Positions 6,463 to 50,637 of a stretch of 64,000 nt of DNA are shown here, piece by piece. The stretch is from Jiangella sp. DSM 45060 (GTDB taxonomy: Bacteria; Actinomycetota; Actinomycetes; Jiangellales; Jiangellaceae). Within the stretch, counting starts at the first letter, position 1; the number at the start of each line of letters is the position of its first letter. The notes below the pieces were generated by a model that had not been told where the DNA came from, did not search any database, and was given only the letters and a program-made list of their open reading frames with translations. The translations under genes and the position numbers were made by a program. The DNA is taken from the NCBI RefSeq assembly GCF_900105175.1, contig NZ_LT629771.1, positions 868,001 through 932,000 of the forward strand. Direction: 5' to 3'.

Positions 6463-7539
6463 TCAGGAGGGGTTGTCGGTCGAGGTGGCCGGCGGCGGGG
6501 CGACCTGCGGCGCGGCAGAGGTGGCCGGCGGCGGGTTGCTCGGGTCGCTCGCGCCGGTGCCCGGACCGCCCGCCGGCGTCTCCGTGGCGACCGGCAGCGT
6601 GAGCCGCTCCGCGTCGAACCGGCGCTTGATGCGTTCGCGCAGCTCCCGCGCGACCCGCCACTGCTCCAGCGGCTTGGTCTTGACGACGACGCGGATGAGA
6701 ACGCCGTCGGCGGTGAGGTCCTCGACGCCCCAGACCTCGGGGGGTTCGAGGATCAGCTCGGCCCACCGGTCGTCGGCGGCGAGGTCGGTGACGACCTGTT
6801 CGAGCAGCCGCTTGGCCCGGGCGACATCGGCGTCGAGCGGGACGTGGACGTCGAGCAGCGCCCGCGACCAGCCGTAGGACGAGTTGCCGACGCGAACGAC
6901 CTCGCCGTTGCGGACGTACCAGACGGTGCCGTCGACGGAGCGCAGCCGGGTGATGCGCAGGCTGACGGCCTCGACGGTGCCGACGGCGTGGCCCATGTCG
7001 ACGACGTCGCCGACGCCGTACTGGTCCTCGAGCAGCATGGCCGCCCCGGCGAGGAAGTCCTTGACGAGGTTCTGCGCGCCGAAGCCGAGGGCCACCCCCA
7101 GCACGCCGGCGGACGCGAGCACCGGCCCGACGGCGTAGCCGAGCATCTCCAGCGCCGTGACCACGGCGATGGCGCTGATCAGCACCGTCGTGATGCTCCG
7201 CAGCACCGAGCCCATGGTCTCGGCCCGCAGCGCCCGCCGTTCGGAGTAGGCGCCGGCGCCGCCGAACACGATGCGGGCGGCCCGGGCGGACCCCAGGACG
7301 GCCTTCGGCGGCTCCTTCTCGACCGTGCGGCGGACCATGCGGTTGATGAACTTGTGCAGCAGGTACCGCGCGGCGACGGCGATGACGACCAGGCCCGCCA
7401 GCCGCAGCGGGACGTCGAGCAGGACGTCGCGCCACCACTCGGCGGAGTACTGCTCGGCCTCGGTGACGTCGGGCCCGGCGACGATGCCGGCCGTGCTCAG
7501 GACACCGCCCGCCGCGAGCAGGCCGACCATCGGGATCAC
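6463..7539 (-). CDS. Small-conductance mechanosensitive channel, MscS family
   Basis: A 358-aa membrane protein. It has hydrophobic segments near the N-terminus, at about 40-60, and through 120-165, where the pore helix region VLASAGVLGVALGFGAQNLVKDFLAG matches the MscS TM3 glycine/alanine pattern. The beta domain follows with DQYGVGDVVDMGHAVGTVEAVSLRITRLRSVDGTVWYVRNGEV, the MscS signature. The C-terminus is a Pro/Ala/Thr-rich tail of about 45 residues. It would act as an osmotic safety valve in the cell membrane. The start GTG 7539 overlaps the stop of the upstream peptidase gene (GTGA); ATG 7530 is an alternative. Confidence 0.9.
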   Translation of the reverse strand: MIPMVGLLAAGGVLSTAGIVAGPDVTEAEQYSAEWWRDVLLDVPLRLAGLVVIAVAARYLLHKFINRMVRRTVEKEPPKAVLGSARAARIVFGGAGAYSERRALRAETMGSVLRSITTVLISAIAVVTALEMLGYAVGPVLASAGVLGVALGFGAQNLVKDFLAGAAMLLEDQYGVGDVVDMGHAVGTVEAVSLRITRLRSVDGTVWYVRNGEVVRVGNSSYGWSRALLDVHVPLDADVARAKRLLEQVVTDLAADDRWAELILEPPEVWGVEDLTADGVLIRVVVKTKPLEQWRVARELRERIKRRFDAERLTLPVATETPAGGPGTGASDPSNPPPATSAAPQVAPPPATSTDNPS

Positions 7540-9647
7540 CGTGCCTCCAGCCCCAATTGCGCGGCGAGGAAGCCGAGCTGGTCCGCGCTGAGGTCGACGG
7601 TGCGCGAGACGGCCCGGGCGCCGTGCCCGACGTTGGCCTCGGCGCGCAGCAGGATGGGCCGCGTGGCGGGGTCGCCGGACGTGGCGGCCTGCAGGGCGGC
7701 GGCCATCTTGCGCGCGTGCAGGGTGTCGACGCGGCTGTCGCCGTCGAACACGGTGAACAGGACGGACGGGTACTCGACGCCGTCGCGGACGTGGTGGTAC
7801 GGCGAGTAGCCGAGCAGCCACTCCAGCTCGGCCGGGTCGGCGGCGGTGCCGTACTCGTCGTTCCAGGTCGCGCCCAGCCCGAACTTCTCGTACCGGACCA
7901 TGTCGAGCAGCGGCGCGGAGCAGATGACGGCGCGGTACAGCTCGGGCCGCTGGGTCAGCGCGGCCCCGACCAGCAGGCCGCCGTTGGACCCGCCGAAGAT
8001 CGCCAGCTGGTCAGACGTCGTCCAGCCCTGGTCGACGAGGTACGACGCGGCCGCCGCGAAGTCGTCGAACACGTTCTGCTTGTTCTCGCGCATGCCGCCG
8101 CGGTGCCACTGCTCGCCCTCCTCGGAGCCGCCGCGCAGGTTCGCGACGGCCCACACGCCGCCGGCCTCGACCCAGGCCAGGATGCTGGCGGAGTAGGCCG
8201 GGGTGAGCGCGATGTTGAAGCCGCCATAGCCGTAGAGGACGGTGGGCCGCGGGCCGTCGGCGGACCCCGCCGGCGACACGATGACCATGCGCACCTCGGT
8301 GCCGTCCTTCGACCGGTACGTCACCTGCTCCGACCGCACGGCCGGGACGTCGACCAGCCCGGGCGCGTCGGCCCAGGTCGACACCGCGCGGGTGCGGGCG
8401 TCGTAGTGCAGGACGCGCACCGGAACGGTGTGGTCGGTGTAGCCGAACCACGCCTCGTGCCCGCCCTCGGGCCGTTCGGACAGCCCGCCGGCGCTGCCGA
8501 TACCGGGCAGCTCGAGCGTGTGCAGCGCGTCGCCGGTGGCCAGCGCGTGCGCTGTGACCTCGGAGACCGCGTGCCGGGTGCGCGCCGCCAGCAGCACCGG
8601 GGCGTCGAGCTCGGCGCCGTCGAGGATGGCGAAGTCCTCGAGCACCGCCTCGGGGTCCTCGGCCAGGAGGTCGCGCCAGTGCTCGGGCTCGGGCGTCGTG
8701 GGGTCGGTGACGGCGAGCCGGCCGCGCGGCGCCCCGAGGTCGGTCCACACGTACAGCCGGCCGTCGCGGCCCACGTGCAGTCCGGTCTTGGCGTCCTGGC
8801 CGACGACGACGGGGCGCAGCTCGGGCTGCGCGGGGTCGGCGTCGCGGAGGTCGGCCAGCCAGACGTCGTTGCGCGGCGCGGTGCCCTGCGCGGCGGTGAC
8901 CGTCAGCCAGCGGCCGTCGCGGCTGACCGAGACGCCGTAGTAGTTGGTCTTCTCCATGCCGGCGCCGAAGATCTCGACGTCGTCGGCGGGGTCGGCGCCG
9001 AGCCGGTGCAGGTAGACGCGGCGGTGGAACTGCTCCTCGCCCTCGGGGACGGCATCCTTGGGCAGCCGGCGCACGTAGTAGAACGCCTCGCCGCCGGGCA
9101 GCCAGGCGACGGGGGAGTAGCGGGCGCGGTCGATGGGGCCGTCGACCACCTCGCCCGTCGCGACGTCGAGCACGCGCAGCACCGACTCCTCGGTGCCGCC
9201 CTCGGAGACCTGGTACGCCAGCAGCGTGCCCTCCTTGGACGGCTGCCAGGCGTCGAGCGTGGTGGCGCCGGACGGGTCCAGCGCGATGGGGTCGACCAGC
9301 GCCCGCTCGGCCCCGCCGGGGTCGACGGTGAGCAGCACGGCGTGCTCCTGGTCGGGCGTGCGCCGGGTGTGGAACACGCGGTCGCCGCGCCACGCCGGGG
9401 TGCCGACGGAACCGGCCCGCAGCAGCTGCGTCAGCCGCGCGGCGAACGCCGGGCGGGCCGCCCAGCCGGCGCGGTGCTCGTCGAACAGCACGCGCTGCGC
9501 CTTGGACCACGTCTGCGTGACGGGGTCGTCCTCGGGCTCGAGCGCGCGGTACGGGTCGGGCACCGTGACGCCGTGCAGCACGTCGGCGTCGTCGCCGCGG
9601 GGGGCGGGGGGATACGGCTGCGGGGGAGTCGATGCGTCCAAGGCCAC
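7536..9647 (-). CDS. Prolyl oligopeptidase, S9A family
   Basis: A 703-aa serine peptidase: an N-terminal seven-bladed propeller (about 70-430) and a C-terminal alpha/beta hydrolase domain. The catalytic Ser554 lies in FGGSNGG, the likely Asp in the DGDSRVD segment, and His675 in VGHGA. The start motif [26 protein letters not shown] is typical of the family. There is no signal peptide, so a cytosolic peptidase for proline-containing oligopeptides is expected. GTG 9647 lies 6 nt after a TAAGGT box. The downstream MscS-type gene overlaps by 4 bp. Confidence 0.92.
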
Positions 9648-9653
9648 CCTCCG

Positions 9654-9659
9654 ACCTTA
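9654..9659 (-). promoter_or_regulatory. -10 box TAAGGT of a leaderless gene
   Basis: TAAGGT on the minus strand ends 6 nt before GTG 9647 of the prolyl oligopeptidase. CGGAGG abuts the start codon with no spacing, too close to serve as a ribosome site, which favours a leaderless transcript. Confidence 0.5.
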
Positions 9660-10283
9660 CTGACCCCCTCGGACCGGCTCGCGCCACATGGCCGTCAGGG
9701 TGGGGCCGCCGGGCAGGACGATCTCGCCGGCCGGACGGAATCCGTACCGCTCGTAGATCGCGACGTTGCCCGGCGCCGACGACTCCAGATACGCCGGCAG
9801 CCCCTGCGCGTCGGCCCGCGCCAGCCCGTCGCGCAGCAGCGCGCCGCCCACGCCCCGTCCGGGCCGCGCCACCCCGAGCGTCTGCAGGTACCAGTGCGGC
9901 GGCGACGGCGGGTGCGCGTCCTCGATGACCCGGAACGACCGCAGCGCCGCCGGCAGCCCCGTCCCGAACGCCCGCAGCAGGTACCGGCTGTAGCGCAGCG
10001 TCGGCCAGAACCCCGGCGGCCGGGCGCCCGGCAGCCCCCACAGCGCCGCCCCGGCGATCTCGCCGTCGGCCACCGCCACCCACGACCCGTGCGGGCTGAG
10101 CAGCGCCTCGAACGCGAACAGCGCGGTCAGCCGCTCGCGGTACCGCGTCGAGGGCACGACGAAGCGCATCATCGGGTCGGCGTCGAACGCCTCGGCCAGC
10201 ACCCGCGCGACCGTGCCGACGTCGGAGCGCAGCGCCTGCCGGACGACGTGATTCGAAGGCTGCACCACTTGATCATGCGCCAT
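9657..10283 (-). CDS. GNAT-family N-acetyltransferase
   Basis: A 208-aa acetyltransferase. The acetyl-CoA loop is in the stretch LQTLGVARPGRGVGGALLRDGLARA (the GRGVGG type of the R/QxxGxG/A motif), followed by YLESSAPGNVAIYERYGFRPAGE, the usual C-terminal beta strands. The N-terminal part VRQALRSDVGTVARVLAEAFDADPMM fits the family. The substrate is unknown. ATG 10283 is the first in-frame start; the frame is open further upstream, but there it is antisense to the next gene. A second GNAT gene starts divergently 59 bp away. Confidence 0.85.
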   Translation of the reverse strand: MAHDQVVQPSNHVVRQALRSDVGTVARVLAEAFDADPMMRFVVPSTRYRERLTALFAFEALLSPHGSWVAVADGEIAGAALWGLPGARPPGFWPTLRYSRYLLRAFGTGLPAALRSFRVIEDAHPPSPPHWYLQTLGVARPGRGVGGALLRDGLARADAQGLPAYLESSAPGNVAIYERYGFRPAGEIVLPGGPTLTAMWREPVRGGQ

Positions 10284-10341: not shown

Positions 10342-10884
10342 ATGGAGGTTCGTGACGCTGATGAGCCGGTGGTTCGCGGCGCCGAGGTGGCCGACGCCGA
10401 CGCCATCGCCGCGGTGCACGTGGCCGGCTGGCGGCGGGCGTTCGCCGGAGTCGTCGACGCCGGGTTCCTGGCCGGGCTGGACGTCGGCCGCCGGGCGGCG
10501 GTGTGGCGCCGGCTCATCGCGGAGCCCGATCCGCGCTCGACCGTCCTGGTCGCCGTCCGCTCCGGCCGGATCGCCGGGTTCTGCTCGGCCGGCGCCTCCC
10601 GCGACGCCGACGGTTCCGCCGACGTCGGCGAGGTGTACGCCATCTACGCCGACCCCGCCCAGCTGGGGACCGGGGTCGGGCGGGCGCTGATGACGGCGGC
10701 GCTGGAGTTCCTCCGGGCCGAGGGCTTCACGCGGGCGACGCTGTGGACGCTCGAGGGCAACGCGCTGGGGCGGGCGTTCTACGACCGGTCCGGATGGGCG
10801 CCGGACGGCACGCGCCAGGTGGAGCAGGTCGGCCCCGACCTGCTCACCGAGGTCCGCTACGCCCGCGAGCTGCCCGGGCCGTAA
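10342..10884 (+). CDS. GNAT-family N-acetyltransferase
   Basis: A 180-aa acetyltransferase. VRGAEVADADAIAAVHVAGWRRAFAGVV is the usual N-terminal helix pair. The core GEVYAIYADPAQLGTGVGRALMTAALEFLRAEG holds the acetyl-CoA pyrophosphate loop (LGTGVG), and ATLWTLEGNALGRAFYDRSGW is the C-terminal catalytic strand and helix. It acetylates an unknown amine or peptide. Transcription is probably leaderless from TAGGTT at 10328. The 3' end converges on a frameshifted gene whose open frame runs antisense under this one. Confidence 0.87.
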   Translation: MEVRDADEPVVRGAEVADADAIAAVHVAGWRRAFAGVVDAGFLAGLDVGRRAAVWRRLIAEPDPRSTVLVAVRSGRIAGFCSAGASRDADGSADVGEVYAIYADPAQLGTGVGRALMTAALEFLRAEGFTRATLWTLEGNALGRAFYDRSGWAPDGTRQVEQVGPDLLTEVRYARELPGP

Positions 10885-10900
10885 GCTGGCGGGGGCCCCG

Positions 10901-11652
10901 CTAGATCGGCCAGCGGCTTCGTCCGGCATGCCGGGGTAGAGCACCGGGGAGATGCCGAGCTCTTTCGCGGCGAACCGGAGTTTGCGTTTTGCGCGGTTGG
11001 CCGACGTGAAGTCGGTCGATGGCGCGGCCCGCCCACACCATGCTCGCGGCTGCCGCATGAATGCCCAAGACCGCGGTGCGCTCCAGAGCCGCGGCAACCT
11101 CGGAATGGTGGACGCGGTCCCGAACATGAGGGCCACACTGGAGAACGACGGGTGCGTGTGCGCGCAGAACAGGCGATACGCGACGTACAACTTGGGGTGG
11201 AACAGGGTGCAGAGCTGGTGCATCTTGCTGAGTTGGTTCTCCAGATCGTTCGCTTTGGGCAAGTCCATGTCTGCCTGAGTCAGGGCATCAGCAGGCACGA
11301 CGATCTCTGCATCGTGGATCGACTGCGAAAGAGCCCGGGTGGCCCGCAGGCCTTTCGTGTGGAAGGTGGCGTCTGCCTTGGGTTCCTGCGCGACCCACGA
11401 GGCGGTGAGGGCGTAGTCGAAGGCCCGGCGGGCGGCGTTGACGCAGTCGCTCAAGAGCCCGGCGTCGAACAGCATGTCGGCACTCTTCGCGGCCTGGGCG
11501 ACGTGGTTCGCGAGGCCGACAGCAAGGCGGGTACGCCTCTCGTTCTTGACCTTGGTCTCGATGTCGTTCTCTGTGTCGTAGTCGTCGATCAGGCGGGTGA
11601 GCACACGCCGAATGACGTGTACTTCGTCTGCGTCCAACGACCAATCGTTCAT
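10901..11652 (-). pseudogene. Uncharacterised gene with probable frameshift near its 3' end
   Basis: From ATG 11652 a natural-looking protein of about 170 aa (start MNDWSLDADEVHVIRRVL) can be read, with RAFDYALTASWVAQEP and LYVAYRLFCAHTHPSFSSV. It may resemble DUF5677-type proteins, but I am not sure. The frame then has no stop until 10333, running antisense through the whole GNAT gene. Near 11105 the adjacent frame becomes protein-like (AALERTAVLGIHAAAASMVW) and ends at a TAG at 10901-10903, just after the GNAT stop. The original frame looks natural again around 10,930-10,990 (KELGISPVLYPGMPDEAA), so two compensating shifts are possible. Codon use is less GC-biased than in neighbours, suggesting transfer. 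A sequencing error is the alternative. Confidence 0.5.
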
Positions 11653-38953: not shown

Positions 38954-39685
38954 ATGAGCCTGCCGCTCGTCCTCATCCACGCGTTCCCGCTGACGCCGGC
39001 GGTCTTCGACGACCTCGCCGAGCGGCTGACCGGCACGACGCTGATCCGCCCGGCGCTGCGCGGCTTCGGCGGCCCGCCGCTCGACGACGCCGAGCCGTCG
39101 GTGGACGTCTATGCCGACGACGTCGCCGCGGAGTTGCGAGCCCAGGGGATCGAGCGGGCGATCGTCGGCGGGCTGTCGCTGGGCGGGTACGTGACGATGG
39201 CGTTGCTGCGCCGCCACCCGGACCTGGTCGCGGGCGTCGTCCTGGCCGACACCAAGGCGAGCGAGGACACCGCGGAGGCGAAGGCGAACCGGCTGCGCAT
39301 GGCCGACGCGGTCGAGCGGCACGGCAGCCGGGCGCTGTGGCCGATGCTCGACACCCTGCTGGGCGAGACCACCCGACGCGACCGCGCCGACCTCGTCGTG
39401 CGGGTCAGGGACTGGCTGGACGCCGCACCGCCGGACGGCGTCGCCTGGGCGCAGCGCGCCATGGCCGCGCGCCCGCCGTCGTTCGGCACGCTGCGCGAGG
39501 CGGCCGCCCGCGGGCTCACGACCAGCACCGTCATCGTCGGCGCCGAGGACTCCGTCACCGGCCCGGACGAGGCCGGCGCCATGGCCGCGGCCCTCGGCGG
39601 GGTGACGGTGCACGTCGTCGACGGCGCCGGGCACCTCAGCCCGCTGGAGCACCCGGACGCCGTCGCCGAGATCGTCAGCCCTTGA
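38954..39685 (+). CDS. Alpha/beta hydrolase
   Basis: A 243-aa hydrolase. The oxyanion turn is LIHAFPLTPAVF, the nucleophile Ser in VGGLSLGGYVTMAL, the Asp in GAEDSVTGPDEA and the His in VDGAGHLSPLEHP. The shape is that of an esterase or lactonase of the 3-oxoadipate enol-lactonase type, but the substrate cannot be inferred. ATG 38954 follows a TAGTGT box. The 3' end overlaps the convergent permease gene by 11 bp. Confidence 0.87.
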   Translation: MSLPLVLIHAFPLTPAVFDDLAERLTGTTLIRPALRGFGGPPLDDAEPSVDVYADDVAAELRAQGIERAIVGGLSLGGYVTMALLRRHPDLVAGVVLADTKASEDTAEAKANRLRMADAVERHGSRALWPMLDTLLGETTRRDRADLVVRVRDWLDAAPPDGVAWAQRAMAARPPSFGTLREAAARGLTTSTVIVGAEDSVTGPDEAGAMAAALGGVTVHVVDGAGHLSPLEHPDAVAEIVSP

Positions 39686-40607
39686 TCGCGCCCGCCGTCA
39701 GCCCCTTCGTCACCTGGTTCTGCAGCAGCGCGAACACCAGCAGCACCGGCACCACCGTGATCATCATGCCGGCGAACAGCGTCACCCAGTTGGTGCCGTA
39801 GTCGGCGGCCTGGCCGAGCTGGAACAGCCCGAGCGGCAGCGTCATGCGGTCGGGCGAGTGGATCAGCACCAGCGCGTAGAAGAACTCGTTCCAGTTCTGC
39901 AGGAAGCTGATGATCGACACCGACGCCAGGCCGGGCCCCATCAGCGGCAGGATCACCCGCAGGAACGTCCGCACCGGGCCGGCGCCGTCGACGGCCGCGG
40001 CCTCCTCCAGCTCTCCCGGCAGCGTCTTCATGAACCCGACCAGCACGAACACGTTGAACGGCAGGTTGTACGTCGCGTACACCAGGGCCAGCCCGAGCCG
40101 GCTGTCCAGCAGCCCGAGGTCCTGCATGGTCATGTACAGCGGGATGAACGTGACCATCCACGGCACCATCAGGCCGAGCAGGAACACACTGAGCACCAGC
40201 CCGCTGCCCCGGAACGGGATGCGCGCCAGCGGGTACGCGGCGAGCGCCGCGAGCGCGACGCCCAGCACCGTCGCCGACACGCTGACGATGACGCTGTTGC
40301 CGAAGAACGAGCCGACGTTGGCGCTGGACCACGCGTCGGTGTAGTTCTGCCAGCGCCAGTCCTCGGCGATCGTCCACGGGCGGGTGCCGATGAACTCGCT
40401 GTTGGTCTTCATCGACACGTTGAAGACCCAGGCGAACGCGCCCGCCGTCGAGAACGCGAACGCGCCGAGCAGCAGGTAGATGATCAGGTGGAACCGGCGG
40501 AACGGCGCGCGGTCGCTGCCGCGGCGGCCCCCGCGACGACGACGCGACGACGGCGGCGTGGGCGGGCCGGCGGACGGCGCCGGGCGGACGTCAGTACTGG
40601 AGCTCAT
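39675..40607 (-). CDS. Carbohydrate ABC transporter permease (MalG type)
   Basis: A 310-aa membrane protein with a basic cytosolic N-terminus and six spans. The EAA loop is visible at LPGELEEAAAVDGAGPVRTFLRVILPLMGPGLA, which docks to the ATPase. It is the second permease of a family-1 sugar importer and starts 17 bp inside the end of the first permease gene. No cognate ATPase gene is nearby, so a shared MsiK-type ATPase encoded elsewhere probably drives it, as is known in actinomycetes. It belongs to the operator-A transcription unit. Confidence 0.93.
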   Translation of the reverse strand: MSSSTDVRPAPSAGPPTPPSSRRRRGGRRGSDRAPFRRFHLIIYLLLGAFAFSTAGAFAWVFNVSMKTNSEFIGTRPWTIAEDWRWQNYTDAWSSANVGSFFGNSVIVSVSATVLGVALAALAAYPLARIPFRGSGLVLSVFLLGLMVPWMVTFIPLYMTMQDLGLLDSRLGLALVYATYNLPFNVFVLVGFMKTLPGELEEAAAVDGAGPVRTFLRVILPLMGPGLASVSIISFLQNWNEFFYALVLIHSPDRMTLPLGLFQLGQAADYGTNWVTLFAGMMITVVPVLLVFALLQNQVTKGLTAGAIKG

Positions 40608-41469
40608 CGCGCTTCATCACCTTGTTGACGATCTGGGTCACGACCAGCATGATCACGATGAGGGCGACGCCCATGGCGGCCGCGTAGCCGAACTCGTAGC
40701 GTTCGAACGCGACCCTGTACATCAGTGTCCCGACGATGTCGGTCGACCCGTACGGCCCGCCGTTGGTCATGATGAACACGAACGCGAACGCCTGCATCGT
40801 CTGCACGATCCACAGCACGACCAGGATGCGGAACAGGTCGCGCAGCATCGGCAGCATGACGCTGCGGAACAGCCGCCACTCGCCGGCGCCGTCGATGCGC
40901 CCGGCCTCCAGCACGTCGGGTGGCAGCCGCTCGAACCCGGCCGACAGCAGCACCACCCAGATGCCGATGCCGTGCCAGACGGTCGTGAACGCGACCGCCG
41001 GCAGCGCCGTCGACGCGTCGCCGAGCCAGGTGCGGGCCAGCGCGCCGAGGCCGAGACCCTCCAGCGCCGGGTTGATCAGCCCGAGCGTCGGGTGGTAGAT
41101 GAACTTCCACATCAGCGCGACGACGGCCGCGCTCAGCACCACCGGCGCGAACACCACGAACCGGAAGAACTTCTCCCCGTGGATGCGCTGGTTCAGCGCC
41201 CACGCGATGGCGATCGCCACCGGGAACAGCATGCAGCCGCCGACCAGTGTGAACAGGAACGCGTTCTTCAGCGCGTTCACATAGCCGGGGTCGTCGAACA
41301 ACCGCGTGTAGTTCTCGATGCCGACGTAGCTGGAGTTGCCCGTGCGGGTCCACTCGGTGAACGAGATGTCGATCGTGCGCACCAGCGGATAGAGGAAGAA
41401 CACCCCCAGCAACAGGAGCGCGGGCAGCAGGAACGGGATGATGATGCGGCGTTGTGCGGCTCGGTGCAT
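40591..41469 (-). CDS. Carbohydrate ABC transporter permease (MalF type)
   Basis: A 292-aa membrane protein with six spans. The start IIIPFLLPALLLLGVFFLYPLVRTIDISFTEW and the EAA motif LPPDVLEAGRIDGAGEWRLFRSVMLPML are standard for the MalF-like sugar permeases. It pairs with the following MalG-type gene and the preceding binding lipoprotein. ATG 41469 has a GAGGAGT ribosome site. The sugar is unknown; context suggests uptake of the compound processed by the neighbouring aldolase, enolase and dehydrogenase. Confidence 0.93.
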   Translation of the reverse strand: MHRAAQRRIIIPFLLPALLLLGVFFLYPLVRTIDISFTEWTRTGNSSYVGIENYTRLFDDPGYVNALKNAFLFTLVGGCMLFPVAIAIAWALNQRIHGEKFFRFVVFAPVVLSAAVVALMWKFIYHPTLGLINPALEGLGLGALARTWLGDASTALPAVAFTTVWHGIGIWVVLLSAGFERLPPDVLEAGRIDGAGEWRLFRSVMLPMLRDLFRILVVLWIVQTMQAFAFVFIMTNGGPYGSTDIVGTLMYRVAFERYEFGYAAAMGVALIVIMLVVTQIVNKVMKRDELQY

Positions 41470-41502
41470 CGTGACTCCTCTCGTCCTGCCGCCCGCGAAA
41501 CC

Positions 41503-42846
41503 CTAGTTGCCGTGCACCCGGCGCAGTCCCTCGTCGAGCCGCTCCAGCGTTTGCTGGGCGTCCTGCTCGCCGAAGAGGAGCCGGGCGATCTCCGGGTAGA
41601 TCACGTCCATGGCCGGGCTCTGCGTGATGCCGTAGTCGCGCGGCTCCAGCGCCTCGGCCTCGGAGATGACCTGGTCGATGCCGGGGATGCCGGGCGGGCT
41701 GGGGACGTCGACGACCGCGGAGACCTCGCCGATCTCCTCCGCCCGCCGGGTCTGGGTGTCGACGCTGGTCAGCCGGCGCGACCACTCCAGCGCGAGCGGG
41801 ATGTTCTCGCTCTCGGCGGCGATGGAGATCTCCTGCAGCGCCGCCATGACGGCGCCCTGGTCGCCCGCGCCGCCCTCGACGGCCGGGAACGGGACGACGC
41901 CGAGCTGGAAGTCAGGCGGGATGACGTCGGCCATCTCGCTGACCAGCCAGGTGCCCATGAGGATCATGCCGGCGTCGCCCTGGAAGAACTGCGCCTGGGC
42001 GGCGGTGAAGTCGGTGCCCTCGAAGCCGGTGAGGAACGCGCCCTGGTCGCGCAACTCCTGCAGCTTCTCCAGGCCCTCCAGGAAGCCGGGATCCTCGGTG
42101 ATGTGGCCCTCGCCGCCGGTGAGCACGGCCCGCGCCTTGTCGTAGCCGACGGTGCGCAGCCACAGGTGGTCGCTCCACATGCCCATGTACGGCTCGAACA
42201 GCCCGGTGACGGCGATCGGGTCGACGCCGGCGGCCTTCAGGGCCGTGTTGGCGGCGAGGAGGTCGTCCCAGGTGCGCGGCGGCTCGATGCCGAGCTCGGT
42301 GAACAGGCCCGCGTTGTAGAACAGCACGTGCAGCGACAGCTCGGACGGGATGCCGTAGATGCCGCCGTCGGACGGGTTCTCCATGAACTCGCGGACGGTC
42401 GGGCTGAAGCGGTCCAGCCACGGCTCGCCGGTCTCGGGGTCGTCCTGCTCGAGGTACGGGCGCAGGTCGAGCAGCGCGCCGTCGTCGGCCCAGACCGTCA
42501 GCGCCGGGTTGGTGCCGTCGAACATGCCGTAGTCGACGTCGAGGGGGTCGCCGGAGCGCCAGCGCTGCTCGATGCCGGGGCGGGCGTCGGTGTTGGCGAA
42601 CGTCAGGGTGACGTCGGCGCCGTCGTAGTCGGCCTCGAGGCCGTCGGCCAGCTCCCGCAGGATCGCCAGGCCCGGCGTGCCTTCGGCCGACAGCACGCCG
42701 ACCTCCAGCGGGGACCCCTCGATCTCCTCGTGCCAGCTGCCCGCCTCGGGCCCGGTGTTCGCGGTGTCGTCGTCGCCGCCACCACTGCACGCGGCGAGCG
42801 CAAGGCACCCGGCGGCGAGCGGGGCGACGAATCGCATCGTCTTCAT
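41503..42846 (-). CDS. Carbohydrate ABC transporter binding lipoprotein
   Basis: A family-1 extracellular solute-binding lipoprotein of 447 aa. Its lipobox LAAC gives the lipidated Cys20, followed by a Gly/Asp-rich linker. Typical stretches are ADVTLTFANTDARPGIEQRW and AAQAQFFQGDAGMILMGTWLVSEM, the latter a hallmark of sugar-binding members. ATG 42846 has a GGAAGG ribosome site; a longer in-frame start at 42873 lies inside operator A and is rejected. It heads the importer operon and has its own operator, 69 bp after the aldolase gene. Confidence 0.93.
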   Translation of the reverse strand: MKTMRFVAPLAAGCLALAACSGGGDDDTANTGPEAGSWHEEIEGSPLEVGVLSAEGTPGLAILRELADGLEADYDGADVTLTFANTDARPGIEQRWRSGDPLDVDYGMFDGTNPALTVWADDGALLDLRPYLEQDDPETGEPWLDRFSPTVREFMENPSDGGIYGIPSELSLHVLFYNAGLFTELGIEPPRTWDDLLAANTALKAAGVDPIAVTGLFEPYMGMWSDHLWLRTVGYDKARAVLTGGEGHITEDPGFLEGLEKLQELRDQGAFLTGFEGTDFTAAQAQFFQGDAGMILMGTWLVSEMADVIPPDFQLGVVPFPAVEGGAGDQGAVMAALQEISIAAESENIPLALEWSRRLTSVDTQTRRAEEIGEVSAVVDVPSPPGIPGIDQVISEAEALEPRDYGITQSPAMDVIYPEIARLLFGEQDAQQTLERLDEGLRRVHGN

Positions 42847-42867
42847 GTGCCTGCCTTCCGTGGGTAA

Positions 42868-42883
42868 CTTCAATATTTCGAAG
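42868..42883 (-). promoter_or_regulatory. Candidate IclR operator A (sugar importer)
   Basis: CTTCAATATTTCGAAG, an imperfect 16-bp palindrome of the YTTCG-N6-CGAAR type, is centred 30 nt before the binding-protein ATG. On the minus strand TTGACG lies upstream and could be the -35. Confidence 0.65.
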
Positions 42884-42915: not shown

Positions 42916-43887
42916 TCAGCCGAGATGCGGAAGCATGGCGTCGAACTCGGTGAGGAACCGGTCGACCATGCGGATCTCCTCGGCATCGAGCCGGTGACCC
43001 GGCTCGCGGCAGTACGGGTCGGCGAACAACCCGCGGCGCGCCGAGATGAGCTTCTCGGCCGCGATGATCAGCTCGGTGTCGAGCATCCAGTACGAGATGA
43101 AGGGCAGCAGGCGGCGGTGCAGCTCGTCGCCGCCCGCGTGGTCGCCGGCCTCGTAGCGGCGCCAGATCTCCACGTAGATCTCGGTGAACGAGCAGCCCGG
43201 CTGGGTGCCGACGGCGCCGCGGCGGAACGCGTCGGGCAACTGGACGCCGGCGTAGCCCTCGACCGACGGCAGCGGGGGCTCCGCGGCGGCCAGCTCGGCG
43301 ATGAGCTGTCCGGGCGGGCTCGACTCCACCTTGACCAGCCGCAGGTTCGGGTGCTCTCCGGCCAGCTCGCGCAGGGTCGCCGCGTCGAGGCTGGTGCCGG
43401 TCTCCGACGGCGCGTACTGCAGCACCACCGGGGTCGGCGCGACGGCGGCCAGGACGGCGCCGACGTGCTGGTGGATCGCCCGCCGCGACGGCGACAGGTA
43501 GTGCGGCGGGAGCAGGTTGATGAGGTCCGCCCCCGCGTCGACGGCGGACCGGGCGCGCTGCGCGGCCAGCCGGGTCGCGTGGTCCTGCACGGCGACGATC
43601 GCCGCGACGTCGGCGCGGTCGCGGGTGCGCGACAGCAGCACGTCGGTCAGTTCGGCCCGCTCGCCCTCGGAGAGCTTGTGGTACTCCGAGGCGAAGCCCG
43701 GGAACATCACGCTGCTGACGCCGGTGCCCAGCACGTAGTCGACGACGCGGCCGAAGCCGGCCACGTCGACCGCGCCGTCGGCGTGGAACGGCACCTCCAG
43801 CACCGGCGAGACGCCACGCACCAGCTGTGCCGCATCGGCGGTCGTGGTGCCTCCGTCCGGTGTCGGCCGAGTGTCCAGTGCTGCCAT
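42916..43887 (-). CDS. DHDPS-family aldolase/hydratase (DapA superfamily)
   Basis: A 323-aa TIM-barrel lyase. The Schiff-base Lys lies in LRLVKVESSPPG and the catalytic Tyr in VVLQYAPSETG; VMFPGFASEYHKLSEGERAEL corresponds to the substrate-binding TT/S loop. Members cleave or form 2-keto-3-deoxy sugar acids, N-acetylneuraminate or dihydrodipicolinate. In a catabolic island a 2-keto-3-deoxy-acid aldolase is the best guess. ATG 43887 has a GGAGGGG ribosome site; an upstream start at 43920 would place operator B inside the gene and is rejected. Confidence 0.88.
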   Translation of the reverse strand: MAALDTRPTPDGGTTTADAAQLVRGVSPVLEVPFHADGAVDVAGFGRVVDYVLGTGVSSVMFPGFASEYHKLSEGERAELTDVLLSRTRDRADVAAIVAVQDHATRLAAQRARSAVDAGADLINLLPPHYLSPSRRAIHQHVGAVLAAVAPTPVVLQYAPSETGTSLDAATLRELAGEHPNLRLVKVESSPPGQLIAELAAAEPPLPSVEGYAGVQLPDAFRRGAVGTQPGCSFTEIYVEIWRRYEAGDHAGGDELHRRLLPFISYWMLDTELIIAAEKLISARRGLFADPYCREPGHRLDAEEIRMVDRFLTEFDAMLPHLG

Positions 43888-44020: not shown

Positions 44021-44455
44021 ATGGCATCGGTCAGGCAGGTCCAGGTCACCTTCGACTGCGCTGAGCCCGAGCGCGTCGCCCGCTTCTGGTGCGAGGTCCT
44101 GGGGTACGTCATGGCGCCGCCACCTGCCGGGTTCGCCGGCTGGGACGAGTTCAACGCCACGCTGCCGCCCGAGCAGCGCGGCGAGGCGTCGGCCTGCGTC
44201 GATCCCACCGGTGTGGGCCCGCGGCTGTTCTTCCAGCGCGTTCCCGAGGGCAAGGTCGTGAAGAACCGGGTGCACCTCGACGTGCGGGTCGGCACCGGGC
44301 TCGTGGGTGCGGAACGCCTCGCCACCCTCCAGGCCGAGTGCGACCGCCTGGTCGCGCTCGGCGCGGTACTCGTGCGCGTTCTGCCCGCCGACGAGGTGAA
44401 CGAATCGTGCATCGTCATGCAGGACATCGAGGGGAACGAGTTCGATCTCGACTGA
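44021..44455 (+). CDS. VOC-superfamily (glyoxalase-like) protein
   Basis: A 144-aa two-module beta-alpha-beta-beta-beta protein. VRQVQVTFDCAEPERVARFWCEVLGYVMAPPP and PRLFFQRVPEGKVVKNRVHLDVRV carry the usual metal-site His/Glu positions of glyoxalase-like proteins. It is the common actinobacterial form with the PPEQRGEASACVDPTGVGPRL loop, whose substrate is unknown. It has its own leaderless promoter and no copy of the island's palindrome, so it probably belongs to a separate regulon. Confidence 0.82.
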   Translation: MASVRQVQVTFDCAEPERVARFWCEVLGYVMAPPPAGFAGWDEFNATLPPEQRGEASACVDPTGVGPRLFFQRVPEGKVVKNRVHLDVRVGTGLVGAERLATLQAECDRLVALGAVLVRVLPADEVNESCIVMQDIEGNEFDLD

Positions 44456-44476: not shown

Positions 44477-45208
44477 CTAGCCGAGCAGGCCGGCCAGCGT
44501 GCCGCCGAGCACGGCCGCGCGGTCGTCGTCCGGGATCGGCCAGCCGGTGATCCGGGCCAGCTCCGCCTCCGGCGCCGTGTAGGGCGCGTCGGTCGAGAAC
44601 ACCAGCCGTCCGGCGCCGATCTCCGGGTCGCGGGCGAACTCCGAGAGCACGGTGTCCCACGGCGCGTAGCAGGTGTCGCCGTACAGATTCGGCGCGTGGC
44701 GCAGCGCCGGAGCGGCGTCGATCCAGAAGTCGGTCGCGCCGCTGCGGCCCATGACGAACGAGAGCTCCGGCCAGCGCCGGGCCAGCGACGCCAGCGGCAG
44801 CGGAACCGCGTGCGGCGGCGTCCCCGTGCGCACGTAGACGAGCCAGCCGGACTCCTGGGCGAACGCCAGCAGCGGGTCGATCAGCCCGTCCAGCAGCTCG
44901 AACCCCTGCAGGGCGGCGTCGACGGCGAGCGCGCGGGCGCCGAGGTCACGGGCCCGGGCCAGCTCGGCGACGGCGTCGGCGCCGGCCCACGGGTTGGCGA
45001 CGGCGTACGCGACCAGCCGGCCGTCCGAGGCCGCGGCCGCCGCCGTCGTGAGGTCGTTGCCGGCGCGGTTGTCCCAGGCAGTGGCGTACTCGCCGGGCGC
45101 GACCAGCGCACGGTCGATGCCGAGCCGGTCCATCGTGGCCGTCAGCCCGGCGACGTCGAGCGAGGCGGACCGGCCGGGTCCGAGCCGCACGTGCGCGTCG
45201 ATGATCAC
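44477..45208 (-). CDS. Amidohydrolase-2-like protein lacking metal-binding histidines
   Basis: A 243-aa TIM-barrel protein clearly related to the gene at 47183-47941. The ligand positions differ: HxH of the relative becomes HVR (IIDAHVRLG), its LLSHDGTPPY becomes VYVRTGTPPH, and GHGGLHDLW becomes GRSGATDFW. Only the Asp in VFSTDAPY remains. The three losses, all His to Arg, suggest it no longer binds the usual zinc and is a pseudoenzyme or has a changed activity. GTG 45208 overlaps the preceding stop. It is the last gene of the six-gene operon. Confidence 0.82.
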   Translation of the reverse strand: MIIDAHVRLGPGRSASLDVAGLTATMDRLGIDRALVAPGEYATAWDNRAGNDLTTAAAAASDGRLVAYAVANPWAGADAVAELARARDLGARALAVDAALQGFELLDGLIDPLLAFAQESGWLVYVRTGTPPHAVPLPLASLARRWPELSFVMGRSGATDFWIDAAPALRHAPNLYGDTCYAPWDTVLSEFARDPEIGAGRLVFSTDAPYTAPEAELARITGWPIPDDDRAAVLGGTLAGLLG

Positions 45209-46086
45209 GAGGTCTCCTCGAGGGACAGGCCCAGCGCGCCCAGCGCGTCGGCGTGGATGATCTGCTCGATCACCTCGTCGGGGATCCGCGGCAGCGCGGT
45301 GCCCTCGGTGATCGCGTTGACCCGGCGCAGCCCGGCCATCGCCTCGCCGGTGTTGGCGATCGGGAAGTCCGAGCCGAGCAGCAGCTTGTGCGCCGCGCCC
45401 CACTCGACGGCGGCCAGCAGCGACTCGTAGCAGACCCACGGGCGCAGGTAGATCGACGAGACGTCGGCGTACACGTGCGGGTGCTTGCGGATCGTCACCA
45501 CCGTCTCCTTGCCCCACGGGTGGCCCATGTGCGCCATGACGATGCGCAGCTCCGGGAAGGCCAGCGCGATCTCGTCGGTGACCAGCGGGTACGTGTAGCG
45601 CAGCGGCGCGTGCCTGATGGGGGAGGCGCCCTGGTGGAACAGGATCGGCAGCCCTTCGCGCTGGCAGTAGCCGTAGAACGCGGTGGCGCGCGGCGAGAGC
45701 GGGTCGAAGTCCTGGTAGTTCGGGCCGAGCTTGACGCCGACGAGGCCCAGCTCGCGGCACCGCTCGGCCTCGTCGACGGCGTCGGCGGCGGTCGGGTCGA
45801 CGGACATGAAGCCGATGCGCCGGGCCGGGTCGGCGGCGACGAACGCCGCGGTGGACGTGTTGGTGTCCTCCGGCCGGTACGGCAGCCCGGTGGCCGCCTC
45901 GGGGTCGTCGACGGCGATGTTGAAGACGATCGAGACGTCGGCGTCGGCCATCGCCTCGTCGTAGTCGGCCCACGAGTTCGTCGTCGTGACCGGCCGGTCG
46001 GTGCGCCAGCCGGTGTAGACGCGCCGCTCGTCGTCGGGGACGGCGTCGCGGTGCGTGGGGGTGTGCGCGTGCACGTCGACGATCAT
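45205..46086 (-). CDS. Amidohydrolase-2 family metal-dependent hydrolase
   Basis: A 293-aa TIM-barrel hydrolase with a full ligand set: HAH in VDVHAHTP, His in PILFHQGAS, His in IVMAHMGHPWG and the Asp in LLLGSDFP. The family includes lactonases for sugar acids and aromatic lactones as well as decarboxylases. Start and stop overlap the neighbours by 4 bp (ATGA and GTGA), so synthesis is coupled to the enolase upstream. Context favours hydrolysis of a sugar-acid lactone, which is inference. Confidence 0.88.
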   Translation of the reverse strand: MIVDVHAHTPTHRDAVPDDERRVYTGWRTDRPVTTTNSWADYDEAMADADVSIVFNIAVDDPEAATGLPYRPEDTNTSTAAFVAADPARRIGFMSVDPTAADAVDEAERCRELGLVGVKLGPNYQDFDPLSPRATAFYGYCQREGLPILFHQGASPIRHAPLRYTYPLVTDEIALAFPELRIVMAHMGHPWGKETVVTIRKHPHVYADVSSIYLRPWVCYESLLAAVEWGAAHKLLLGSDFPIANTGEAMAGLRRVNAITEGTALPRIPDEVIEQIIHADALGALGLSLEETS

Positions 46087-47186
46087 CGGAACTCCCGCAG
46101 CAGGTCGTCTCGGAGGGTGACGCCGAGGCCCGGCTCGGCGCCGAGCCGCACGACGGCGCCGTCGCCGGCCAGCGGCTCGGCCAGGATGTCCTCGGCGTAG
46201 TAGTGCGCGCCGATGACGTCCGACGGGATCGCCGACAGCCGCGGCAGCGCGGCCGCGACGTGCAGCTGCGCGGCCGCGCCGAGGCCCAGCTCGCCGTTCG
46301 ACCCGATCAGCACGTCCAGCCCGGCCGCGTCGGCCTGCGCCGCCATCGCGACCGCCCGGCCCGGGCCGCCGCTCTTGCCGACGTAGAGGCTGACGACGTC
46401 CGCGGCGCCCGCCTCGACGACCCGCGTGAGGTCGGCGGTGCCGAACACCGACTCGTCCGCGACGACCGGCAGCCCGAGGTCGCGCAGCGAGCGCATCCCG
46501 GCGAGGTCGTCGGGGCGCACCGGTTGCTCGGCGAAGGCGGGGCCGTACGGCGTCAGCGCGCGGATCGCCCGCGCCGCGTCGGACCGCGACCAGCCGCCGT
46601 TCGCGTCCATGCCGAGGAACGCCTGGTCGCCCACCAGGGACCGCGCGTGCGCGAACCGTTCGACGTCGCCGTCGACGCCCAGCCCGACCTTGACCTTGAA
46701 GGCACCGAACCCGGCGGCGACGGCGGCCGCGTGCGCCCGCTCGAGCTTCTCGCCGTCGCCGGACAGCGACAGCTTGACCGGCACCTCCGTCCGGTACGGC
46801 CCACCCAGCGCGACCGCGAGCGGGACGCCGAGCGTGCGCGCCCACGCGTCCCACAGCGCGATCGAGACGCCGGCCTTGGTGAACGGGTTCTGCGCGAGCG
46901 CGACGTCCATCAGCCGCTCGAGCCCTCCGACCGGCGTCAGCGGCCGGCCCACCAGCGCCGGCGCGAGGATCGTCTCGACGAAGTGCCGCGCGGTGACACC
47001 GTCCTCGCCGCTCCAGATCGGGGTGGCGCTGACCTCGCCGAAGCCCTCGACGCCGTCGCTCGTGACGACCTTCACCAGCAGGAAGTCGGAGCGGTCGTGC
47101 GCGCCGCGGGCGCCGTGGACCACGAGGTCCGGGTGTGCGGCCAGGCTGACGGCCGCCGTCTGCACGGCCGCGACGGTCGCCGTCAT
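46083..47186 (-). CDS. Enolase-superfamily enzyme, MLE subgroup
   Basis: A 367-aa protein with an N-terminal capping domain and a modified TIM barrel. The KxK motif is in FGAFKVKVGLG, metal ligands Asp, Glu and Asp in GMDANGGW, AFAEQPV and VVADES, and the opposite-face Lys in SLYVGKSGG. This arrangement is that of the muconate-lactonizing-enzyme subgroup (cycloisomerases, dipeptide epimerases, OSBS) and not of the sugar-acid dehydratases. The reaction is an abstraction of an alpha proton from a carboxylate. It overlaps both neighbours by 4 bp. Confidence 0.9.
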   Translation of the reverse strand: MTATVAAVQTAAVSLAAHPDLVVHGARGAHDRSDFLLVKVVTSDGVEGFGEVSATPIWSGEDGVTARHFVETILAPALVGRPLTPVGGLERLMDVALAQNPFTKAGVSIALWDAWARTLGVPLAVALGGPYRTEVPVKLSLSGDGEKLERAHAAAVAAGFGAFKVKVGLGVDGDVERFAHARSLVGDQAFLGMDANGGWSRSDAARAIRALTPYGPAFAEQPVRPDDLAGMRSLRDLGLPVVADESVFGTADLTRVVEAGAADVVSLYVGKSGGPGRAVAMAAQADAAGLDVLIGSNGELGLGAAAQLHVAAALPRLSAIPSDVIGAHYYAEDILAEPLAGDGAVVRLGAEPGLGVTLRDDLLREFR

Positions 47187-47941
47187 GCGGCGTCCAGCAG
47201 CCGCGCGGGGTTCTCGACCAGCATCGCCTGCCGCTGCTGCGGCGTGATGCCCCAGCCGTCGATCTCGCGCACCCGCGCGACCGCGTAGTCCTGGCTGGCC
47301 TTGTCGGACAGTCCGGCGTCGGTGCCGAACAGCACCTTGTGCGCCGGCGCCTCGGCCAGGATGTTCCGGGCGGCGTACGGCGGCGTGCCACAGATGCACA
47401 GGTACAGGTTCGGCGTCTCCTGGATCATCGCCAGCGCCTCACGCCACAGGTCGTGCAGGCCGCCGTGGCCGAGCACCACCGGCAGCCGCGGGTGCCGCCG
47501 GGCCAGCGCCGCGATCTGCGACGGCGTCGAGTACGGCGGGGTGCCGTCGTGGCTGAGCAGGACGCCGCCGGCGCCCTGGACGATCTCGCAGATCGGGTCC
47601 AGCGCCGGTTCGTGCAGGCTGAATCCCTGCAGCCACGGATGCAGCTTCATCCCTCGAAGGCCCAGCTCGCCGAACATCCGCTCGGTCTCGGCGACGGCGT
47701 TCCGGTCGCGCGGGGTGACGGTGCCGAAGCCGGTCAGCCGGTCCGGGTACGCGCGGACGAACGCCGCGAGGTCGTCGTTCGCGGCGGGCGTCGGGTTGAA
47801 CAGGCCGTCGTGGCTGAGCACGACCGCGCGGTCGATGCCGGACGCGTCCATGAACGCGACGAACTCGTCCGCGCCGAAGGTCGCGCCGCCCAGCCAGCTG
47901 ACGGTGTTCCAGGCCGGCGTGTGGGTGTGGAAGTCGATCAC
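47183..47941 (-). CDS. Amidohydrolase-2 family metal-dependent hydrolase
   Basis: A 252-aa TIM-barrel hydrolase with complete metal ligands: HTH in IDFHTHTP, His in VLLSHDGTPPY, His in VVLGHGGLHDLW and Asp in VLFGTDAGL. It is the intact relative of the His-to-Arg protein at 44477-45208, sharing TGTPP/DGTPP, PNLY and the strand order. GTG 47941 lies 7 bp after the creatininase-family gene. The likely role is lactone or amide hydrolysis in the same pathway. Confidence 0.88.
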   Translation of the reverse strand: MIDFHTHTPAWNTVSWLGGATFGADEFVAFMDASGIDRAVVLSHDGLFNPTPAANDDLAAFVRAYPDRLTGFGTVTPRDRNAVAETERMFGELGLRGMKLHPWLQGFSLHEPALDPICEIVQGAGGVLLSHDGTPPYSTPSQIAALARRHPRLPVVLGHGGLHDLWREALAMIQETPNLYLCICGTPPYAARNILAEAPAHKVLFGTDAGLSDKASQDYAVARVREIDGWGITPQQRQAMLVENPARLLDAA

Positions 47942-47948
47942 ACGGTCC

Positions 47949-48677
47949 TCACAGGGTCTCGGTCAGGTCGGCGAGGCAGGCGGCCAGACCGGCGACGACT
48001 GTGTCGAGGCGCGCGGCGCCGTCGTCGGCGGTGGCCCGCTCGGGGTGGTCGGTGTAGCCGTCGATGGACGTCCAGAGCGCGGCGTCGTGGACGGTGGCGC
48101 CGGAGGTCGAGCTGATGTCGGGCAGTGGGTAGGCCCGCGGCGGGACGGGGCCGGCGGCGTCCGGGCGGACCGCGCTGACCAGGGAGGTCTCGAACTCGCC
48201 GGCGTGCCCGGGGACCGTGGCGGCGGCGTCGGCGAACCGCCAGTAGTCGACGTGCGCGACGGCCAGCCGGTGCCGGGTCGACGCGGCCGCCGCGGCGGCG
48301 TGGCAGACACCGACGTTGCCGCCGTGCCCGTTGACCAGCACCACCCGGCGCCCGCCGTCGGCCGCGACCGACCGCAGCAGGTCGAGCAGCACCGCCAGCA
48401 GTGTCTCGGGCGTCAGCGACAGCGTGCCGCCGAACGGCAGGTGGTGGTCGGACGCCCCGAACTGGAGGGTGGGCGCGAGGACGAGCGGGCGCCCGGCCCG
48501 CTCGGCGGCGAGGGTCGCGGCCCGCTCGGCCGCCGTCGCCGCCAGCAGCGCGTCGGTGCCGGTGGCGAGGTGCCGGCCGTGCTGCTCGATGGCGCCGACC
48601 GGGAGGACGACGAGCGCCTCCGGCAGCACCTCGTTCAGCGTCTCGCGCGACACGTCGGCCCAGTGGATGAGGGTCAT
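47949..48677 (-). CDS. Creatininase-family amidohydrolase
   Basis: A 242-aa protein. VVLPVGAIEQHGRHLATGTDALLA, VNGHGGN and PGHAGEFETSLV are the three metal-binding stretches of the creatininase family. Members open ring amides and, in inositol or riboflavin-related routes, hydrolyse ring ketones or formamides. Creatinine itself is unlikely without creatinase genes. ATG 48677 overlaps the stop of the preceding dehydrogenase (ATGA). Confidence 0.9.
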   Translation of the reverse strand: MTLIHWADVSRETLNEVLPEALVVLPVGAIEQHGRHLATGTDALLAATAAERAATLAAERAGRPLVLAPTLQFGASDHHLPFGGTLSLTPETLLAVLLDLLRSVAADGGRRVVLVNGHGGNVGVCHAAAAAASTRHRLAVAHVDYWRFADAAATVPGHAGEFETSLVSAVRPDAAGPVPPRAYPLPDISSTSGATVHDAALWTSIDGYTDHPERATADDGAARLDTVVAGLAACLADLTETL

Positions 48678-49660
48678 GCGGTGACTCCTTGCGTCGCGAC
48701 CTGCTCGGCGAGGGCCAGTGCGGCGAGGCCGGCGGCGAGGTCGGGGTCCGGCCGGTCCGCGGCGCCGCGGACGAGGGCGGCGAAGCGGGCCACCTGCAGG
48801 TCGAAGTCGCGGGTCGTCCGGTCGCCGGGGAACTCGGCGGTCTCCTCGCCGGCGGCGGTCGCGAGCCGCAGCGCGAACGTCGACCCGTCCAGGGTGGCCA
48901 GCCCGCGCGGCCCGAGGAAGGTCAGCTCGCACCGCGGCAGCGCGTCGGTCAACCAGCCGAACTCCACCAGCACCTGGTGCCCGCCGGGGTGCCGCAGCCG
49001 TGCGCCGGTGAGGTTCGGCGCCGGCAGGCCGGGGTCGGTGCGCAGCGACCACGCGTCGTCGACGGTGAGGGCGCCGGGTCCGAGCAGGTGCGCCAGCCAG
49101 TCGAAGACGTGCGCGCCCTCGTGCACGACCGGCGTCCCGTGCTCCAGCGTGCGCCGCATCCGGGCCAGGTGCTCGGCGTCGCCGGCCACCCGGGGCTCGT
49201 CGTACACGTGCGCGCGCACCAGCAGCGGCCCGCCGAGCACGCCGTCGTCGATCCATGTCTTGAGCCGCGCGAGCGCGGGGTCGTGCCGGTAGGTGAGGCC
49301 GATCTGCAGCCGCCCGCGCTCGGCGTCGGTGAGCGCCGAGTACACCGCGGCGGCTGCCACCGACGTCGCGACGGGCTTCTCGGCGAGGACGAACCGGCCG
49401 GCCCGCAGCGCGGCGATGGCCAGCTCCGGCGTCGCCCACGGCGGGGTCGCCAGCACGACGCCGTCCGGCCCGGCGCCCAGCGCGTCGTCCAGGCTCGCCC
49501 CGACGACCACGTCGGCGCCCACCAGGGCCTCGACCGCCTCGCGGTGGGCCGCGACCGGGTCGGCGACGGCGACCAGGCGGACGTCGGGGGAGCGCAGCAG
49601 GGCGGGCAGGTGCGCGCCACGGCCGATGTCACCGAGGCCGACCAGCGCGACCGCGACCAT
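48674..49660 (-). CDS. Gfo/Idh/MocA-family oxidoreductase
   Basis: A 328-aa NAD(P)-dependent dehydrogenase, the first gene of the six-gene operon. The Rossmann motif is VALVGLGDIGRGAHLPAL, the catalytic Lys in VLAEKPVATS, and the C-terminal beta-sheet domain begins at IGLTYRHDPALARLKTWIDDGVLG. Substrates in the family are sugars, inositols and their acids. ATG 49660 is chosen for its GGGGGA ribosome site 6 nt upstream; TTG 49672 is in frame. Operator C lies directly before it. Confidence 0.9.
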   Translation of the reverse strand: MVAVALVGLGDIGRGAHLPALLRSPDVRLVAVADPVAAHREAVEALVGADVVVGASLDDALGAGPDGVVLATPPWATPELAIAALRAGRFVLAEKPVATSVAAAAVYSALTDAERGRLQIGLTYRHDPALARLKTWIDDGVLGGPLLVRAHVYDEPRVAGDAEHLARMRRTLEHGTPVVHEGAHVFDWLAHLLGPGALTVDDAWSLRTDPGLPAPNLTGARLRHPGGHQVLVEFGWLTDALPRCELTFLGPRGLATLDGSTFALRLATAAGEETAEFPGDRTTRDFDLQVARFAALVRGAADRPDPDLAAGLAALALAEQVATQGVTA

Positions 49661-49673
49661 CCCGTCCCCCAAG

Positions 49674-49747: not shown

Positions 49748-50560
49748 TCAGCGCAGGTCGTCGAAGCCCAGCTTCCGCGAGACCGTCTTGCCGATCTCGA
49801 CGACACCGGCGATGGCCTCTTTGCGACGCTGGCCGGTGAGGTCGCGGGAGAACCCGGTGACGCCGACGGCGCCGGCCACCAGGCCGCCGGCGTCGAAGAA
49901 CGGCGCGGCGACGCAGGCGATCTCGGCCTGCTCCTCCTCGTCCTCGAGCGCGTAGCCGCGCTTGCGCACGCCGGCCAGCTCGGCGAGGAACGCCTCGCGC
50001 GTCGGCTCGGCGGCGCGCGGGCCGCGGCCCGGCGTGAGGTGGCCCAGCAGCGGCTCGAGGTCGCGCTCGGGCAGGTGGGCGGCGATGGCCTTGCCCAGCG
50101 CGGTGAGGTTGTACGGCGCCACCTTGCCGGGATAGGTGTCGAACTGGATGAACCCGGGCGTGGCCGCCTTCGCGACGTAGACCACGGAGTCGCCGGTGAG
50201 GACGCCGATGTGCACCGGCATGCCGACGAGGTCGGCGAGGTCACGCAGCTCGCGCTGCGCCACCGAGGAGAGGTCGACCTTGCGCACCAGCTGCGTGGCC
50301 AGGCCGTAGAGGCGCAGCGTCGGCCGCCAGAAGTGGCTGCGCCCGACCACCCGCCGCTGCGCGTAGCCGCGCTGCTCCAGCGTGTAGACGATGGAGGCGC
50401 ACGTGGCCAGCGGGATGTTCGTGCGCTTGGCCAGCGCGGTGAGGGTCATGCCGTCGTCGGACTCGACCAGTGTCTCCAGCACGGTCAGCGCCCGCGCGAC
50501 GGCCGGCGACGGTGCGCGGTCCTGGCCCGCCGTGCCCTCGTTGACGTCTTTGCCCGGCAT
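49748..50560 (-). CDS. IclR-family transcriptional regulator
   Basis: A 270-aa regulator. The winged helix lies at about 18-80 (AVARALTVLETLVESDDGMTLTALAKRTNIPLATCASIVYTLEQRGY) and the effector-binding domain at about 90-265, with ALGKAIAAHLPERDLEPLL and AAPFFDAGGLVAGAVGVTGFSRDLT. IclR proteins bind palindromes and release or activate on binding a pathway metabolite. It sits in the middle of the catabolic island, divergent from ridA. Two starts compete; ATG 50560 has a GGGAG ribosome site, while ATG 50575 lies 5 codons upstream. Confidence 0.93.
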   Translation of the reverse strand: MPGKDVNEGTAGQDRAPSPAVARALTVLETLVESDDGMTLTALAKRTNIPLATCASIVYTLEQRGYAQRRVVGRSHFWRPTLRLYGLATQLVRKVDLSSVAQRELRDLADLVGMPVHIGVLTGDSVVYVAKAATPGFIQFDTYPGKVAPYNLTALGKAIAAHLPERDLEPLLGHLTPGRGPRAAEPTREAFLAELAGVRKRGYALEDEEEQAEIACVAAPFFDAGGLVAGAVGVTGFSRDLTGQRRKEAIAGVVEIGKTVSRKLGFDDLR

Positions 50561-50637
50561 TCGTGCTCCCTGCATCCGAGGCCCCGAGCCTACGGGATCT
50601 CACCTGTGTCACTCTATCTTCTGTTTGCCGTAGTCAA

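Follow-up and report, generated by a model that had tools for sequence, protein, structure and literature searches.

A conserved, apparently metal-less amidohydrolase-fold protein of Jiangella, encoded with an intact paralogue, as a candidate pseudoenzyme subunit

Gene A lies in the 64,000-nucleotide stretch of the Jiangella sp. DSM 45060 genome analysed in this study (referred to as the window) and encodes an Amidohydro_2 protein in which, judged from its residues, the canonical mononuclear metal site is absent and cannot form. We propose, at roughly even chances, that A is a non-catalytic pseudoenzyme subunit with an anion-binding pocket, and that it belongs to a hetero-oligomer with an intact paralogue, C, or, less likely, with a second intact amidohydrolase, B.

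Results

Gene A (positions 44477 to 45208 of the window, minus strand) begins with a GTG codon and specifies a protein of 243 amino acids. It scored 74.1 bits against the PF04909 Amidohydro_2 profile (cut-off 26.4), and its intact relative, gene C (47183 to 47941, minus strand; 252 amino acids), scored 128 bits (cut-off 26). Gene C carries the motifs HTH, SHDGTPPY, GHGGLHDLW and GTDAG. Translation of the minus strand agreed with the preliminary description of this region, according to which the first three of these have become HVR, VRTGTPPH and GRSGATDFW in A while the last Asp is kept. The three arginines are found in H6-V-R8 (codon CGG, 45185 to 45187), V-R127-T-G-T-P-P-H (CGC, 44828 to 44830) and G-R155-S-G-A-T-D-F-W (CGC, 44744 to 44746), and the retained Asp is in S-T-D207-A-P-Y (44588 to 44590).

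In ACMSD, the single Zn ion is bound by both histidines of the HxH motif, the strand-5 His and the strand-8 Asp, and the strand-6 His (His228) is catalytic, activating the metal-bound water (PMC11650718). By this numbering, A has exchanged the catalytic His and two of the four ligands of the metal, and only the leading His of HxH and the strand-8 Asp are left. The earlier statement that three metal-binding histidines had been exchanged for Arg is thus right as to the three histidines, but only two of them correspond to metal ligands. The strand-4 Lys is gone as well (GMKLHP has become ALAVDP). An ACMSD-type catalytic site was found neither in A nor in any of its 17 orthologues, and the protein is presumably without metal. 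A search of NCBIfam placed none of A, B and C in a family, and the plasmid collection gave no match.

The orthologue set came from eight other Jiangella genomes and eight other actinobacterial genera (Micromonospora, Amycolatopsis, Rhizohabitans, Actinocatenispora, Sinosporangium, Mumia, Nakamurella and Nonomuraea), making nine genera of soil bacteria in total. The A orthologues were 67-98% identical (n = 17), and HVR, VRTG[TS]P, GRSGATDFW and TDxPYT were invariant in all 17 sequences, with no histidine restored nearby at the motif positions. One transition (CAC to CGC) is enough to turn His into Arg, so each exchange costs little; it is the conservation of the exchange in 17 orthologues that goes beyond chance. 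Among seven Jiangella copies, dN/dS of A was 0.09-0.30, no higher than that of the intact C (0.17-0.45). Catalytic and ligand residues are therefore missing from a protein under purifying selection, the combination that characterizes a pseudoenzyme. The invariant motif across nine genera together with the low dN/dS values indicates that A is not a decaying gene, as the preliminary description had argued.

An AlphaFold model of A gave a full (beta/alpha)8 amidohydrolase barrel (pLDDT 93.2, pTM 0.92). The predicted fold matched PDB entries 3cjp and 3irs over the whole chain with Z scores of about 25-26 (for 3cjp, Z 25.9 over 229 residues, rmsd 2.4), and ACMSD, LigW and resorcylate decarboxylase followed with Z scores of 22-24. 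With the barrel mouth approximately defined as the predicted strand ends plus a few residues, 44 of the 65 mouth positions of A were invariant versus 66 of 178 elsewhere (Mann-Whitney test on column entropies, p = 1.5e-5); the corresponding counts for C were 47/65 and 70/187. By this measure the pocket of A is as conserved as the working site of C. The suggestion of a metal-free active site, for which a structure prediction with a comparison of the pocket had been recommended, gains support from the invariant motif, purifying selection, the conserved pocket and the intact predicted fold.

Three genes lie directly upstream of A on the same strand: B (45205 to 46086; 293 amino acids; HAH, FHQG, AHMG and GSD), a gene for an enolase-superfamily (MR/MLE) protein (46083 to 47186) and C. 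B was 76-97% identical across the orthologous operons. Four-nucleotide overlaps of stop and start codons are present at the C-enolase (ATGA), enolase-B (ATGA) and B-A (GTGA) junctions, so the four genes are probably translationally coupled. Farther upstream are genes for a creatininase-family protein (47949 to 48683), a Gfo/Idh/MocA oxidoreductase (48674 to 49672) and an IclR-family regulator (49748 to 50575), all on the minus strand and, like the enolase-superfamily gene, identified by profile searches. Downstream on the same strand are a DHDPS-family aldolase/lyase gene (42916 to 43845), identified by a profile search and a conserved neighbour of A in the comparison of loci, and a sugar-type ABC importer with two permeases and a substrate-binding protein (39675 to 42873), recognized by inspection of the sequence. 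C and B were found beside A in 7/7 loci outside Jiangella with enough DNA, where the remaining genes were mostly present too. A adjoins B rather than C in the window, and in relatives it lies between B and the DHDPS gene. A scan for promoters and terminators found nothing. A glyoxalase-like (VOC) gene (44021 to 44455, plus strand) is convergent with A and was absent from the orthologous operons compared.

This gene content looks like that of a non-phosphorylative route for sugar or sugar-acid catabolism, a scheme of which is given in PMC6336799; that article also cites an L-fucono-1,5-lactonase of the amidohydrolase superfamily. By analogy, the ABC importer would bring in the substrate, the Gfo/Idh protein would serve as dehydrogenase, an amidohydrolase as lactonase or hydrolase, the enolase-superfamily protein as dehydratase and the DHDPS-type protein as aldolase, with IclR exerting control.

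Of the 394 class genomes, nine had A, and precisely these nine also had C. These nine belong to one genus and are phylogenetically dependent, so they represent one lineage rather than nine independent events. Distances within A and C were mirrored (r = 0.98, 11 A/C pairs), although a shared species history alone would largely raise this value. A is thus encoded with an intact relative and inherited together with it, as a pseudoenzyme/enzyme hetero-oligomer would require.

The same genome carries a second, diverged copy of the module on the contig at about 3.03 Mb (L010:6710-11543). It consists of a DHDPS gene (6710-7642), a metal-less A2 (7639-8370) directly upstream of an intact C2 (from 8376), a Gfo/Idh gene (9119-10129) and a creatininase gene (10794-11543), together with a GntR regulator and a divergent B2; an enolase gene was not present in the stretch read. 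A2, with 47% identity to A, is likewise metal-less but by other residues: it has HVA, VVTG and GRSG, with the Asp kept. Since A shares with A2 only the Arg of strand 6 (GRSG) and the Asp, the triple arginine is specific to the A clade. It was likewise in all 17 A orthologues that a survey for the HxR/VRTG/GRSG combination, proposed earlier, recovered it; the triple arginine as a general rule of the lineage was rejected, given the HVA/VVTG/GRSG of the sister clade. In the tree, A and A2 formed one clade (support 100/99) and C and C2 another (100/99), and these two clades were sisters (91/69), which places the pseudo/intact split before the two modules.

Pairs of this kind also occur in distant bacteria. 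A degenerate amidohydrolase gene lay directly upstream, on the same strand, of the intact match in 12/12 loci with enough upstream DNA (L050-L059, L061 and L062; the pseudo copy of L052 is partly seen), L060 being outside this count owing to its short upstream DNA. These loci come from four phyla, Planctomycetota, Latescibacterota, Armatimonadota/WS1 and Bacillota. In most of the upstream proteins HxH is gone; an Asp lies near the position of the strand-5 His, the strand-6 motif is often of the GYR type, and Gly usually stands in place of the last Asp. These proteins represent a second metal-less clade (GYR/FGTG), different from A/A2 and supported at 100/100. Further such pairs were found in Jiangella and members of its family (L020-L025, L069), and a search with the second pseudo clade found more in other actinobacterial genomes (L091-L093, L095-L097, L099). 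Among the lower-scoring intact matches in L100-L119, a pseudo neighbour was absent within the 1.5-kb flanks, so pairing is not a general habit of PF04909.

Several other arrangements were seen. The genome of the window has two more pseudo/intact pairs with the pseudo gene upstream, both of the GYR/FGTG clade (L005:334-2235, plus strand; L006:1504-2957, minus strand). An Oscillospiraceae locus (L062:9213-14562) has a run of seven consecutive amidohydrolase genes, of which three are metal-less and the other four intact. A Jiangella relative (L036:707-2253, genome G008) has a pair in which one member carries HVHV, with Val, Asn and Ala at the remaining positions, a different degeneration. Two metal-less genes (L111:1291-1998 and L116:1498-2175) lack an intact partner within their 1.5-kb flanks and may be exceptions to pairing.

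A single origin of A/A2 and the second pseudo clade was recovered in 9% of bootstraps, the tree placing A beside C, but the AU test gave no grounds to reject it (p = 0.555). We lean towards two origins of these metal-less amidohydrolases.

Discussion

When a metal-less chain is conserved and its gene always accompanies that of an intact paralogue, the most fitting interpretation is a subunit without catalytic activity. A retains its predicted barrel together with the strand-8 Asp, whereas the metal site has been given up and filled with arginines; in the proposed arrangement, it would pair with C, the intact paralogue of the same coupled operon, in a hetero-oligomer. The arginine-lined pocket might hold an anionic ligand of the sugar-acid type, or it might shape or stabilize the active site of the partner. 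Alternatively, Arg-Asp pairing might replace the metal within the pocket, and the anion could be a substrate or a product. The arginines may bind a carboxylate, as suggested in the preliminary description; in the sister clade, however, just one of the three is present. The idea of a pseudoenzyme partner, raised there as well, is supported indirectly by co-occurrence, by a second module with its own pair, by mirrored trees and by the distant pairs; the physical A:C complex and its ligand are inferred. C appears the more likely partner, because A2 adjoins C2, A groups with C as its sister, and in the other pairs, too, paralogues lie next to each other. As A touches B in the window, B is still a candidate.

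Two precedents make a hetero-oligomer plausible. In ACMSD, Arg239 is supplied in trans by the neighbouring subunit (PMC11650718), and an inactive dihydroorotase chain (pDHO) is required for the aspartate transcarbamoylase (ATCase) of P. aeruginosa (PMC7053772), so that pseudoenzymes are already known in the amidohydrolase superfamily. A clear counterpart of the trans-acting arginine of ACMSD and LigW was not found in A or C when the motif after strand 6, at the expected spacing, was looked for by inspection.

A highly conserved pocket would also fit an active metal-free enzyme, and this is the main rival, which we consider rather unlikely but well ahead of the others. Asp207 would act as the general base, and the arginines would bind carboxylates and polarize the carbonyl, much as in LigI, the 2-pyrone-4,6-dicarboxylate (PDC) lactonase of cog3618. 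LigI reportedly works without a metal; it has an amidohydrolase fold, carboxylate-binding arginines and the strand-8 Asp, with its histidines kept. A and A2 both have the Asp without exception, three arginines stand at former metal-site positions in A, and the mouth of A is conserved as in C; moreover, the structures with folds close to that of C include PDC lactonases, some of them Asp248 mutants, and those close to A include two PDC-hydrolase entries. However, A2 has Ala and Val in place of two of these arginines, so the set does not make up a conserved catalytic apparatus. LigI itself retains its histidines, and the fixed pairing with an intact paralogue would be left unexplained.

A stand-alone role for A in ligand binding or regulation, or as a scaffold of the entire enzyme cluster, without any particular link to C, is improbable. 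The conserved pocket would suit such a role, as would the position of A next to B in the window, or between B and the DHDPS gene in relatives. On the other hand, A2 adjoins C2, the sister clades A and C are paired in two diverged modules, and the other pseudo/intact pairs are adjacent too. We regard as highly improbable a metalloenzyme with a site rebuilt from other residues: HxH still has its first His, and the Asp is retained, but no His, Cys, Asp or Glu occupies the aligned positions of the lost ligands in any orthologue, and arginines are unlikely ligands. A decaying, functionless duplicate, to which the loss of catalytic residues alone would point, is refuted by conservation and dN/dS, and the open frame with its coupled start in the operon speaks against it as well.

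If the pseudoenzyme subunit reading is extended beyond this operon, two-gene amidohydrolases consisting of a catalytic and a metal-less chain may be general in bacteria. Tentatively, and with less assurance than for A itself, they would have arisen at least twice (A/A2 and the widespread GYR/FGTG clade), with the pseudo chain as an obligatory subunit needed to determine specificity or to complete the active site. Profile searches label genes like A plain "amidohydrolase" despite their inability to hold the usual metal. If the two chains are obligate partners, intact members expressed alone would show misleading activity or none, and this could help to explain why so many Amidohydro_2 enzymes of catabolic operons lack an assigned substrate. 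The pair, present in two diverged modules of the same genome, offers a clean test case for the conversion of a dead paralogue into a subunit. We found no account of paired pseudo/intact Amidohydro_2 genes in the literature, although subscription journals were mostly outside the search, making this weak evidence of absence.

Among known systems, ACMSD, LigW (5-carboxyvanillate decarboxylase) and resorcylate decarboxylase resemble A in fold, core length and the strand-8 Asp, but the HxH motif and the strand-5 and strand-6 histidines that they carry are lost in A. LigI resembles A in its amidohydrolase fold and strand-8 Asp, and may resemble it in carboxylate-binding arginines and metal-independent chemistry, but it differs in its histidines; we know of no paired paralogue of LigI. 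The pDHO of the Pseudomonas ATCase parallels the role proposed for A, as an inactive dihydroorotase-like chain needed by the enzyme with which it assembles (PMC7053772), but the enzyme it supports is a transcarbamoylase rather than an active paralogue of its own, and it belongs to another branch of the superfamily. The prozyme of trypanosomatid AdoMetDC (PMC6221367) is a dead paralogue that forms an active complex with its living sister. Such pseudoenzyme heterodimers have an unrelated fold, and their complex has been demonstrated, whereas that of A with C is a proposal.
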